In this document: piece after piece, positions 13,285 through 36,673 of the stretch | Position numbering within the stretch: the stretch's first letter is position 1 | How the letters are laid out: every line of letters starts with the position of its first letter | The notes under the pieces: generated by a model | Told to the model about the DNA's origin: nothing | The model's database searches: none | What the model saw: only the letters and a program-made list of their open reading frames with translations | Made by a program: the position numbers and the translations under genes | Assembly (NCBI RefSeq): GCF_030186535.1 | Contig: NZ_JASNVW010000003.1 | Span: 62,001 to 126,000, forward strand | Direction of reading: 5' to 3' | DNA length: 64,000 nucleotides | Source: Ignisphaera cupida | GTDB lineage: Archaea > Thermoproteota > Thermoprotei_A > Sulfolobales > Ignisphaeraceae

Positions 13285-13488
13285 CAAAGAGAAGAACACG
13301 TCGAAGACTATTGGCTTAGACAATAATAAAGACTCATAAGCTTTAGCTTTTCAGCTACTACAGATATCTAGAGCCACACACCTCAACAACAACAAAGTAT
13401 TCACAAAAGACTAAGCACAGGCTGTTTTCGATTTAGCGATAAATTTAAATGCTTTTGTTCACATGTAAATACTTGATGATGAGAAAAG

Positions 13489-13700
13489 ATGTTGTGTAAA
13501 CACATCTCTGTGATCCGCTATGCGGTGAGAGGGGGTGAGAGAGTAAGAGTTGCAGATGGGAGTCTCGTGGCGTTGGGCTCGACAGAGCCCCATGAGGCTT
13601 GGGTGAAGCTGGTGAGCCCAAGCCTAGGGCTAACCCCACTCACGGAATTAAAAGTGATTGAAACCTATTATAAGTACCGTGAGTGGGGAAACGCTAAAAC
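13489..13700 (+). pseudogene. tnpB 3'-end relic
   Basis: A short GC-rich open frame whose middle reads 'DGSLVALGSTEPHEAWVK', clearly the tail of TnpB (the intact copy at 22.3 kb has 'DGSPVPLGSTAAHDP' there). The N-terminal catalytic part is absent. The relic includes the right-end hairpin described separately and is followed by AAACG. In 13700-13860, minus-strand open pieces ('RLLMMSGELFLTKEALNN', then 'KDYSQFLAISHI' in another frame) look like a further decayed gene. Confidence 0.65.
13634..13688 (+). repeat. tnpB right-end hairpin, copy C
   Basis: CCCCACTCACGG (13634-13645) and CCGTGAGTGGGG (13677-13688) are perfect 12-bp complements around a 31-nt loop that contains GTGATTGAAA. AAACG follows directly. 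The stem sequence differs from the other two copies while pairing is conserved. Confidence 0.7.
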
Positions 13701-13856
13701 CTAGGAATGTGGGATATTGCCAAAAACTGTGAATAATCCTTCACTGTAAGAGCCAAGTCTTCATTACTGAACCACTAAATACATTGTTTAGCGCTTCTTT
13801 TGTTAAGAACAGTTCTCCTGACATCATCAATAATCTGCTTATGATTTTAAATAAAA

Positions 13857-22127: not shown

Positions 22128-22309
22128 AACCTCAAAACACCCTTTTCCAAACAAACTCATTTTTATATAATCACAGCTACCTGCACATAAAGTTACCAAT
22201 GTTTTGCTTAACACAACTAAGAATTGCATATTACCAAACAAATACTTTTATTTTGCACCTCATTGATTAAATTTGAGGTGACTAAAATGTACAGATTGTT
22301 GCACCGTTT

Positions 22310-22365
22310 GTCCCTAGATGTTCATTCTAATCATTTTATATGAATTCATGGTCTCATCTAGGGAC
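22310..22365 (-). repeat. tnpB right-end hairpin, copy A
   Basis: In tnpB sense, GTCCCTAGATG (22365-22355) and CATCTAGGGAC (22320-22310) are perfect 11-bp complements around a 34-nt loop containing AAAATGATTAGAATGA. The stop codon TAG is inside the 3' arm. AAACGG follows directly. It probably forms the end of the element and part of the guide-RNA scaffold. Confidence 0.75.
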
Positions 22366-23618
22366 TTCCGCCTCGCCCACAGGGCTCTGGGTACCCGTGT
22401 GGGGTCATGGGCGGCTGTCGAGCCCAACGGCACGGGGCTCCCATCTACGAAGAGCCCAGCGAGGCTTGGAGCAATGCTCCCATCACCTCGCAAGGCTATG
22501 AGAAGAAGGTTCCAAACAGCTACCACGTCTCTGTGCCACATTTCACCACCTCTTTCGCACTTGCCTATCCTTGATTCATTCCCGTAGACTATTTTTGAGC
22601 CGTGGATTGGGCAGAGCCTGGACGTGTTCCTCGGGTTCACGTAGACTACTGAAACGCCGTACTCTCGAGCTTTCTCCTCAATCGCCTCCTGCATGCCTCT
22701 AAAGGCGGCTTGAAATATCCTGTGCCTCAGCTGGCTGTCCCTTATCCTGAAGACCATCTTCTCACCGGGTCTCCTCCCGAGTTTCTCCATGACTATGGCG
22801 TAACCTCTCTTGGAAGCCTCTCTCACAACAATATTCGCAATCTTCCACCTGGTATCCTGCTTCTTCTCCCGCTCCCTAAGCTTCCTAAAGATTTTCCTCT
22901 TAACCCTCGACTTTATGCCATGAACCTTGTCGTATTTTTCCTGAACCCTCTTCCTCCTGTAGTAGTAACCTAAAATAATGTCCTTCATATCTGTCTCGAA
23001 GAGGTAAGCAGTACCATCGATTAGTGCGGTGACATTGTTCTCATTAACATCAACAGACACAAAGCCACGTGGTCTATGCTCCTCAACCTCTTTCACGAAG
23101 GTCAAGTAGACTAGCAACTTCCTGCTCTTTCTGTCTAGCTTAATCCTCGCCTCTGAGGCAAGCTTCCAGCTCTTATTCACGTACTTCCAGTATTGTTTGT
23201 GCGGTATAACTTCGAGAGGTATCCAGCCCTTATGGGTAGCTACTTTAATAGATGTTAAATCATTTGCTTTCCACAAGTGGTCGTCTAGCCAGATAGAGAC
23301 ACTGTTGACTTCTGGGTACTCTCTTTCAACCAACCCCTTCTTCCTCAGCTTGAGAAAGCTCTTAGCTCTTGTGGATGCGTCTTGACAAGCAGTATATGCA
23401 TAGTGAGAAGGGAGCTGAGGATATAGATTCCTTAACTCACGATACTTCAAAGCTTTTAGCCTTGTGAAAGATGCAATACCCTCTCTCACAGCATGCAACA
23501 CTAATTGCTCAACCATGTTGCGGTACATACCCTCAAGCTCAACAAAAACTCTGAAGAACTTTCGCGGAAGAGGAGGCGTCTCAACAACAACGGTTCTAGC
23601 CACCCTCATCTTTCTCAA
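22314..23618 (-). CDS. tnpB: TnpB, RNA-guided transposon-associated nuclease
   Basis: A 434-residue TnpB with a complete RuvC triad: Asp190 in 'FVSVDVNENN', Glu278 in 'AIVMEKLGRR' and Asp364 in 'MWHRDVVAVWN'. The zinc ribbon is degenerate: C336-P-I-H339 is paired with C354-E-R-G357, so two of four ligands are Cys, one is His and one is lost. The C-terminal tail 'VDGSPVPLGSTAAHDP' and 'RRKSLDETMNSYKMIR' recurs in the relics of this window. TnpB cuts DNA guided by RNA from the element's right end. The start is TTG 23618, overlapping the HTH stub by 4 nt. Nuclease competence looks likely apart from the weak zinc site. Confidence 0.9.
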   Translation of the reverse strand: MRKMRVARTVVVETPPLPRKFFRVFVELEGMYRNMVEQLVLHAVREGIASFTRLKALKYRELRNLYPQLPSHYAYTACQDASTRAKSFLKLRKKGLVEREYPEVNSVSIWLDDHLWKANDLTSIKVATHKGWIPLEVIPHKQYWKYVNKSWKLASEARIKLDRKSRKLLVYLTFVKEVEEHRPRGFVSVDVNENNVTALIDGTAYLFETDMKDIILGYYYRRKRVQEKYDKVHGIKSRVKRKIFRKLREREKKQDTRWKIANIVVREASKRGYAIVMEKLGRRPGEKMVFRIRDSQLRHRIFQAAFRGMQEAIEEKAREYGVSVVYVNPRNTSRLCPIHGSKIVYGNESRIGKCERGGEMWHRDVVAVWNLLLIALRGDGSIAPSLAGLFVDGSPVPLGSTAAHDPTRVPRALWARRKSLDETMNSYKMIRMNI

Positions 23619-23818
23619 CCTCTTCTACCAGTTTTTGAAACCCTCCTTGCTGAAGTACCCTCAATAATCCTCCTGACCTCGCTCTCAGGAATCCTATACT
23701 TCCCACCAGCAGTCCTAATGGCTTTGACCCTGCCTTCTCTAACCCACCTAGAGAGAGTAGAATAGCTTATGCCAAGCCTCTGACAAACCTCCTTAGGCCT
23801 CAGCAACTTCTCAAACAT
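23615..23818 (-). CDS. IS607 TnpA HTH domain only (resolvase domain missing)
   Basis: A 67-residue MerR-like HTH: 'LLRPKEVCQRLGISYSTLSRWVREGRVKAIRTAGGKYRIPESEV' is the N-terminal DNA-binding part of IS607 serine recombinases. Full TnpA goes on for another 120 or more residues with the catalytic Ser ('YARVSS'), which is absent: the frame ends after 'SARRVSKTGRRG'. The stop overlaps the tnpB start (TTGA), so deletion of the resolvase has produced a compact HTH-tnpB operon. The stub may still bind the element's left end and repress it. Confidence 0.8.
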   Translation of the reverse strand: MFEKLLRPKEVCQRLGISYSTLSRWVREGRVKAIRTAGGKYRIPESEVRRIIEGTSARRVSKTGRRG

Positions 23819-24096
23819 CTACAACCACTACATGGATTCCAAAGAAAATAAATACTTACAAAGCTTGTAAACTTCTCACAGAATAATCAATTAGGAAACA
23901 GCCCTTAAGAACATATCTAATTGTTGCTGATAAGCCCTTTCTACTCCCTTTTGGGAGTTCCTGCTTGCTACACTATTTAAAGTGTTTATTTGTTTTTCTT
24001 TAAAAGTTTTGTTGAAGTTTTAAGAACATTGCTTAGAAAAACAAGAATAGAATTTGCTTCTTTAACAAAAGTAGGTGTTCTAATGATAAAAATGCT

Positions 24097-35620: not shown

Positions 35621-36299
35621 ATTCACCTTTTTGCAAAACCATGTTTTGAATAAGCTTTTTTAGTTTTTCAAAGCCAAAAATTCTTCGGTAATTCAAATTA
35701 ATTGAAACAAGAGATATTCTACTTAGAATATGCAAACCTGTTGGGACCAGGGTTAGAGGAGTTGTTGTTTACTATCACTGGGAAGGTTTTGTTTCTGGAG
35801 ATATTGAGAAGTCTGATGCTAAGTGCAGATTTATTAACAGCAACTGTGGCTGCACAATGGTTTCCATTGACTATAGATTGATGCCAAAGCACAGGTTTCC
35901 AGCTGCTGTAGTAGACTCTTTCGATGCTCTCAAGTGGGTTTATGACCATGCCTAGGAGCTTAGCAAAAACAAGAACAATGTATGTGTAATTGGTATTAGT
36001 GCAAGTGGCAATTTAGCAGCTATTGCAACTATTTTGGCTAGAGACGATAGGATAAAGCTAAAGTGCCAAACACTTGTGTTGCCTGTTATAGGCTTTGACC
36101 CATACTCAGCTTGAAAGAGACTTTCAACCCATTGTTCACACCAACACCATCAAATCTTGAAAACCCCCACAAGCACTGGTAATAACAGCTAAAAAAGATG
36201 CTTTGAGAGATCAGGAAGAGGCATATGCTAAGAGATTGAAAGACTTTAGGCTGAATCCTTTTTCATGTCAATAAAAATCTTCTTATATTTGTTTACATT

Positions 36300-36500
36300 G
36301 GTTAAGAATGATCTCTCTCACTGATGTGGGCTACGCCCAAAGGGAGTGGGAGTAATTTGGAGATGTGAGTCTTGTGCCGTTGGGCTCTAAAGAGTTTCAT
36401 GACCCACTTACCAAGCTTAGCAGTAAGTGGTTAAGGGTTAAGTCTCTACACTTGATCATGAATAAACACAAAATGATTGAAATGAAAGTGTAGAGACAAA
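36300..36500 (+). mobile_element. tnpB 3'-end relic inserted in the esterase gene
   Basis: The frame near 36360-36495 reads 'DVSLVPLGSKEFHDPLTKL ... RVKSLHLIMNKHKMIEMKV', a clear match to the intact TnpB tail ('DGSPVPLGSTAAHDP ... RRKSLDETMNSYKMIRMNI'). Only the last 50-60 codons remain. Its right boundary falls between the hairpin end at 36497 and the resumed esterase frame by about 36505, which marks the element's right end. Confidence 0.75.
36442..36497 (+). repeat. tnpB right-end hairpin, copy B
   Basis: GTCTCTACACTT (36442-36453) and AAGTGTAGAGAC (36486-36497) are perfect 12-bp complements around a 32-nt loop containing AAAATGATTGAAATGA. AAACAG follows. The stop codon TAG again lies in the 3' arm. 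Confidence 0.75.
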
Positions 36501-36673
36501 CAGTACCAGTAATCTCGATTAGACTAAATGGAATTGGGTACATGCTTAATGAGGGACATGAAAAATTCGTTAATCTCATAGTGGCAACATTTCTAAGAGA
36601 AGTGCTATCAACATAAACAAAGGAATTTGATAAGTATTTACATCTTGTACACATCTCCACACATCTACACAAA

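Follow-up and report, generated by a model that had tools for sequence, protein, structure and literature searches.

The right-end hairpin of an archaeal IS607-type element: a likely stem of a TnpB omegaRNA carried mostly by non-autonomous mini-elements

One IS607-type element and two mini-elements

Perfectly paired arms 11 bp or longer, enclosing loops of 20 to 45 nt, occur at only three places in the 64-kb window (the whole stretch of DNA analysed), near 13.6, 22 and 36.4 kb (Table 1). They account for 5 overlapping registers, whereas 20 first-order Markov simulations gave 0 to 3 (mean 0.5), and a covariance model recovered all three copies with E-values of 1e-24 to 4e-37. The three hairpins were confirmed as real and non-random. 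A previous sequence-only reading had given their arms (all perfect), loop lengths and coordinates correctly, and, as it had stated, every 3' arm is followed on the sense strand by AAAC. It had also described them as three tnpB 3' ends. This is true of the copy at 22 kb, whereas those at 13.6 and 36.4 kb have no tnpB open reading frame.

The 22-kb copy lies in an IS607-type element, in which a serine-recombinase tnpA with an N-terminal helix-turn-helix stands beside tnpB. This tnpA is truncated (it matches positions 1 to 50 of the 187 of NF033518, at 41 bits) and that at C1:505 kb is frameshifted; a full-length NF033518 tnpA adjoins omegaRNA-linked tnpB in G044, G050 and G004. The TnpB of the window matched NF040570 and PF07282, whereas the PF01385 profile gave no match to it. 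The catalytic residues D190, E278 and D364 of TnpB were invariant in 12 homologues. A TnpB profile matched solved TnpB and Cas12f chains, whereas a phmmer search of the PDB with the single TnpB gave no match.

The stop codon of tnpB falls within the 3' arm of the 22-kb hairpin. The loops had been said to be 31 to 34 nt long with a shared A-rich RTGATT core. The lengths hold for the window (28 to 36 nt in the family), but the core is not a family feature: loops of other copies are unrelated in sequence, and in the 22-kb loop the core is coding sequence for the TnpB C-terminus (YKMIRMNI, then stop). Conservation of this C-terminal peptide was rejected as the cause of the pairing, since the loops encode unrelated peptides and the frames are broken in 13 solo copies. 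A CRISPR-like reading of GATTGAAA in the loops was also rejected, GATTGAAA being the codons for KMIE. Separately, a CRISPR-repeat-like palindrome, CTTTCTACTCCCTTTTGGGAGTTCC, lies at 23937-23961, ≈ 35 bp beyond the left end of the element that carries tnpB. It is present once in the window and scored 36.8 bits against CRISPR-DR17, under the cut-off of 42.

Table 1. Features of the 22-kb element, the two mini-elements and the interrupted esterase gene
Feature	Position	Strand	Remarks
IS607-type element, 1599 bp	22304-23902	-	left end common to mini-elements
Left end, GCTGTTTCC..	23902	-	GG dinucleotide immediately outside
Right end, ..GACAAACGG	22304	-	
tnpA remnant	23615-23818	-	N-terminal helix-turn-helix of IS607 serine transposase alone; catalytic domain gone
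tnpB, open frame, 434 aa	22314-23618	-	NF040570, 106 bits; PF07282
TATA-like box TTTACA	23866-23871	-	in left end; same place as TTTATA of mini-elements
omegaRNA core scaffold	22304-22448	-	overlaps tnpB 3' end; model R1, E 3.8e-37; covariation
Stem 1 hairpin	22420-22440	-	loop CCGTT (22426-22430) is one pseudoknot side
Stem 2/3 helix	22368-22414	-	covariation
Terminal hairpin, probable stem 4 of omegaRNA	22310-22365	-	11-bp arms, 34-nt loop
AACGG, pseudoknot 3' strand and element terminus	22304-22308	-	
Predicted guide TGCAACAATCTGTACATTTT (host flank)	22284-22303	-	placed from scaffold end
Mini-element, 274 bp, subfamily II, without tnpA or tnpB ORF	13421-13694	+	left end identical to other own-genome copies
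TATA box TTTAAA, +23 of left end	13444-13449	+	conserved in subfamily II of G000, G001 and G004
Solo omegaRNA core	13552-13694	+	R1, E 1.4e-24
GCGTT, stem 1 loop	13570-13574	+	pairs with AACGC (13690-13694)
Terminal hairpin, CCCCACTCACGG/CCGTGAGTGGGG	13634-13688	+	12-bp arms, 31-nt loop
Predicted guide TAAAACCTAGGAATGTGGGA	13695-13714	+	putative
Mini-element, 254 bp, subfamily III	36250-36503	+	within esterase gene
TATA-like box TTATAT, +33	36283-36288	+	same left end in G208 copies
Solo omegaRNA core	36359-36503	+	R1, E 8.7e-26
Terminal hairpin, GTCTCTACACTT/AAGTGTAGAGAC	36442-36497	+	12-bp arms, 32-nt loop
AACAG, pseudoknot strand	36499-36503	+	one C-A mismatch with CCGTT (36377-36381)
Predicted guide TACCAGTAATCTCGATTAGA	36504-36523	+	esterase sequence right of insertion
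Esterase (Abhydrolase_3) pseudogene split by mini-element	35716-36613	+	sister orthologue PF07859, E 5e-61; tblastn

The copies at 13.6 and 36.4 kb are solo mini-elements and not tnpB genes, and their DNA resembles the last 40 to 50 codons of tnpB. The mini-elements contain a left end with an archaeal TATA box, a whole omegaRNA and a right end. They thus have both ends, lack a transposase or nuclease reading frame and are present in several copies, as MITEs are, with an empty site for one copy. Targeted searches of the same genome gave 25 model matches, ≈ 22 of them convincing omegaRNA copies, and a TnpB frame stood beside four of these (C3:84 kb, C1:503 kb, C2:250 kb with one stop, and C1:452 kb). 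The mini-elements of this genome measure 253 to 275 bp from left to right end, with the TATA box at a fixed place. Left ends of subfamilies I, II and III start with GCTG. The TATA box of subfamily I is TTTATA at +31 in G000, G001, G004 and G030, and all six left-end matches of subfamily II were followed by an omegaRNA. In subfamily I, left flanks and right ends both terminate in GG; the terminal dinucleotide of subfamily II is GC.

The boundaries of the 36-kb mini-element could be fixed from the esterase gene. In the sister genomes G003, G004, G005 and G006 the orthologue is continuous over the site, so the element must be 36250-36503. The empty site of G003 reads GACTTCAAGG followed directly by TACCAGTAAT, and the right flank of the window after AAACAG is TACCAGTAAT. 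The proposal that an esterase is interrupted at 36.5 kb, with the element boundary just after the hairpin, was borne out by this empty site, the boundary falling at AAACGG/AAACGC. The junction lies 1 to 2 nt off an exact exchange dinucleotide in this decayed copy, and the pseudogene has two more in-frame stops upstream of the insertion. At this one locus, the predicted guide is the right half of the insertion target; the sister esterases show a few mismatches to it, and in G003 all of them lie beyond the first 10 bases. For the 13-kb element no empty site could be demonstrated, its flanks being unconserved in the sister genomes, and the joined flanks of the other solo copies of this genome gave no convincing spanning gene.

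Fold of the RNA and turnover of its terminal hairpin

For 34 copies, drawn from this genome as well as Thermoproteota MAGs and genomes, we aligned the 3'-terminal 145 nt. RNAalifold gave three stems with double-sided compensatory changes in 23 of 29 pairs. In addition, a pseudoknot of 5 bp was spotted by eye: the stem 1 loop CCGTT is complementary to the terminal AACGG. Both sides are changed in the 13-kb subfamily (GCGTT/AACGC, C-G to G-C) and in L098 they read CCATT/AATGG. For stems and pseudoknot together, 97.1% of the cells were paired and 24 of 34 pairs showed double-sided changes, with a covariation score of 0.419 as against 0.132 for shuffled alignments and 0.05 to 0.09 with the partners slid. 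The terminal hairpin changed on both sides at 10 of 11 pairs, and the pseudoknot was paired in 98.8% of cells. Solo loci alone (62 sequences) gave 94.2% pairing and a covariation of 0.532 (0.175 shuffled); their pseudoknot was 95.5% paired, by CG, GC, UA and AU pairs. Since this larger alignment was fitted to the stems of the model, from which the pseudoknot is absent, its pseudoknot result is stronger than its stem result. In the 13 solo sequences with stops in the tnpB frame, 93% was paired as against 95% for the rest.

The terminal hairpin showed signs of being exchanged as a whole. In L082 (1501-1645, minus strand) the loop is inverted relative to L080 and L081, being 94 to 97% identical as the reverse complement between identical arms, and in L093 it is inverted relative to L095 (82%) with the arms unchanged. 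Such in-place inversion is a signature of template switching or of inversion at a perfect repeat. Trees of scaffold and hairpin conflict for L078, L079 and L084/L085. The 5' scaffolds of L078, L079, L084 and L085 are near-identical and their terminal hairpins unrelated, as if a cassette had been exchanged between subfamilies. Inversion and tree conflict together indicate that the hairpin is turned over as a unit by template switching or recombination, and its compensatory changes, taken alone, therefore overstate step-by-step selection. Pairing might then be kept by mutation and not by selection, template switching correcting the arms and flipping the loops. The two inverted loops and the exchanged hairpins speak for this, but template switching explains neither the covariation across several helices nor the pseudoknot, whose arms are ≈ 120 nt apart and of another topology, and we consider a purely mutational origin improbable. 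Template switching probably contributes to terminal-stem turnover. The sequence-only reading had argued from compensatory change in the hairpin that the structure is selected. Covariation in three stems and the pseudoknot upholds the structure, and a search for copies without complementarity, run on the 34 and then on the 62 sequences, left the claim standing. The single hairpin is weaker evidence than had been claimed, given that hairpins are swapped whole and loops inverted; it is the pseudoknot and the other stems that decide.

The architecture is that of the ISDra2 omegaRNA, which in the cryo-EM structure has stems 2/3 and a terminal stem 4 besides a stem 1 whose loop forms a pseudoknot with the bases preceding the guide (PMC10097598). 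As here, the ISDra2 RNA (also called reRNA) overlaps both the 3' end of tnpB and the right end, with a guide that lies outside the element (PMC10097598, PMC8612924). Halobacterium omegaRNAs have the same pseudoknot and right-end hairpin (PMC12558985). In our copies the omegaRNA overlaps the tnpB 3' end and stops at the element right end (the 22-kb copy and 17 further full copies), and the flanks after the scaffold differ in all copies. Six nucleotides (AAACGG) separate the terminal stem from the flank in both alignments, and the one feature that nearly all surveyed TnpB omegaRNAs retain is a 3' stem-loop no more than 10 nt from the guide (PMC10278001). Unlike ISDra2, the present element is archaeal and of IS607 type, its pseudoknot is CCGTT/AACGG or GCGTT/AACGC, and its terminal stem of 11 to 12 bp carries a loop of 28 to 36 nt instead of a tetraloop. 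SisTnpB1 of Sulfolobus islandicus is similar in its archaeal tnpB right end, in two inverted repeats close to the 3' end and in the non-conserved guide that follows; it is of IS200/IS605 type with the TAM TTTAA (PMC10640517), whereas here the left flank ends in GG. The IS607 TnpB of ISFba1 shares the G-rich target motif and an RNA of stems and pseudoknots, but its RAGATH-18 reRNA lies downstream of the tnpB coding region (PMC11061315), and ours overlaps tnpB. Rfam RAGATH-18 reRNA and sotRNA (RF02656, RF02657) gave no match at the gathering score in the window and none at a relaxed E-value in 13 loci.

With this ISDra2-like architecture, a hairpin at the right end and a TnpB that keeps its catalytic residues, the hairpin would be an omegaRNA stem of a known kind. 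Of the two roles proposed earlier, right end and guide-RNA scaffold, the empty esterase site and the covariation of three stems and pseudoknot support both: the hairpin appears to be the transposon right end and also the terminal stem of the TnpB guide-RNA scaffold. A DNA-level right end for the transposase, with the RNA incidental, would fit its position exactly at the element end, the binding of such hairpins by IS200/IS605 transposases (PMC10278001), and L099, a copy of ≈ 90 nt with little more than a left-end-like sequence and the hairpin. The element is of IS607 type, however, with a serine transposase, and such enzymes work on duplex ends that have a GG exchange site (PMC6188088); in addition, covariation is just as strong in the parts far from the end, namely stem 1, stem 2/3 and the pseudoknot, which makes this explanation highly improbable. 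A perfect stem at a tnpB 3' end might also suggest an intrinsic terminator of tnpB, but this is scarcely credible with the stop codon within the 3' arm, AAACGG in place of a T-tract, a loop of 28 to 36 nt and covariation of the terminal stem along with the upstream stems.

We thus prefer the omegaRNA reading. The RNA would fold into stem 1, the stem 2/3 helix and the terminal hairpin as stem 4, in the fold indicated by covariation, with the five bases AACGG before the guide pairing to the stem 1 loop. By homology, the host sequence to the right of the element would be the guide. Loaded TnpB, if it acts as known TnpBs do, would cut an unoccupied insertion site beside a GG-ending motif, and repair from an occupied copy would then restore the element. 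Repeated internal deletions that removed tnpA and tnpB would have given rise to the mini-elements, whose guides would most likely serve, in trans, TnpB proteins from other loci of the genome. That the hairpin is stem 4 of an IS607-type omegaRNA, most copies being non-autonomous mini-elements with guides most likely used in trans, we regard as very likely.

Distribution and origin of the mini-elements

A search with a covariance model of the copies, as the sequence-only reading had proposed, found the omegaRNA in 65 of 300 sampled genomes of the phylum, and the mini-element pattern recurs in related archaea. Among 82 copies inspected in seven genomes, 18 had a long TnpB frame and ≈ 60 were solo; these were the best-scoring copies of copy-rich genomes and not a random sample, so the ratio is indicative only. 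The model matched 49 times in each of G004 and G040 and 115 times in G208. The latter genome, of 2.8 Mb, belongs to another family, yet its subfamily III mini-elements share the left end of the 36-kb copy.

On the scaffold tree the full/solo label requires 14 changes, at least 11 of them by supported branches, and several solo groups sit with full copies of their own genome. This interleaving points to repeated internal deletion. In different lineages, the deletions repeatedly end at the 5' side of the omegaRNA and keep the promoter ahead of it.

Several copies differ from the common form. L246-L267 (those of G197) and L100 represent a further omegaRNA subfamily: its end is AACCAC, and it has mini-elements of its own (≈ 255 nt) and a TnpB parent of 467 aa (L255). 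In L092, the mini-element (1501-1643) stops exactly where a tRNA gene (1644-1716) begins, so its predicted guide is the tRNA 5' end. In L099 (1501-1607, locus on the reverse strand), GTTTCATTT abuts the terminal hairpin, and neither a promoter nor the other stems are present. In L207, two omegaRNAs lie on opposite strands within 320 bp.

Passive remnants or guide genes

Retention of the promoter and of the whole omegaRNA after deletion can be read as selection for guide-RNA function. The mini-elements could also keep the omegaRNA only through its overlap with the right end needed for transposition. More generally, the solo copies may be ordinary MITEs or dead 3' remnants in which the omegaRNA is a passive, unused passenger. 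The IS607-related MITEs of ≈ 260 nt in Staphylothermus marinus were described without an RNA role (PMC2678158), and decayed copies exist (L096-L098). The C-A pseudoknot mismatch of the 36-kb copy recurs in L097, which suggests that some solo copies are decaying. No RNA-linked locus found in this genome encodes a TnpB of subfamily III, the subfamily of the 36-kb copy. Against a passenger role, the structure survives frame breaks in 13 solo copies and persists across 62 solo sequences, and deletions in different lineages recurrently stop at the 5' side of the omegaRNA with the promoter retained. We find the passenger explanation somewhat unlikely, and favour guide genes.

Stand-alone omegaRNAs of IscB systems and palindrome-associated mini-elements also provide guide RNAs without a neighbouring nuclease gene; they belong to an IscB/IS605 background in bacteria. 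Right-end hairpins of omegaRNAs, guides of IS607 TnpBs and the ≈ 260-nt IS607 MITEs of S. marinus (PMC2678158) are known. The latter resemble the present mini-elements in length class, in their many copies and in sharing ends with an IS607-type parent; the available part of the report presents them as inverted-repeat MITEs, and promoter and omegaRNA content is not remarked upon there (PMC2678158). The AACCAC mini-elements of G197 are probably these MITEs, and the elements of G197 and G035 (one genus) fall into the ≈ 260-nt size class. In the literature searched, outside which important papers lie, we found no description of archaeal MITEs as promoter-driven complete omegaRNAs, and no paper that brings reRNA, TnpB and MITE together.

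There is about an even chance that copy-rich species of hyperthermophilic archaea, with ≈ 20 to more than 100 matches per genome, hold mostly promoter-driven, stand-alone mini-IS607 guides of ≈ 260 bp that are loaded in trans by a few TnpBs. If so, each nuclease-less mini-element would protect its own site and spread, and regulation or defence could draw on this pool of guides. A class of archaeal MITEs, recorded in 2009 as simple repeats, would become candidate guide-RNA genes, and TnpB is predicted to use dozens of guides in trans in each cell. The maintenance of non-autonomous elements by RNA-guided nucleases thereby becomes testable. No Rfam family covered this RNA here; the alignment of 34 to 62 sequences provides for a covariance model of the archaeal IS607-type omegaRNA with an explicit pseudoknot, and also yields a set of thermophilic TnpB/omegaRNA pairs.
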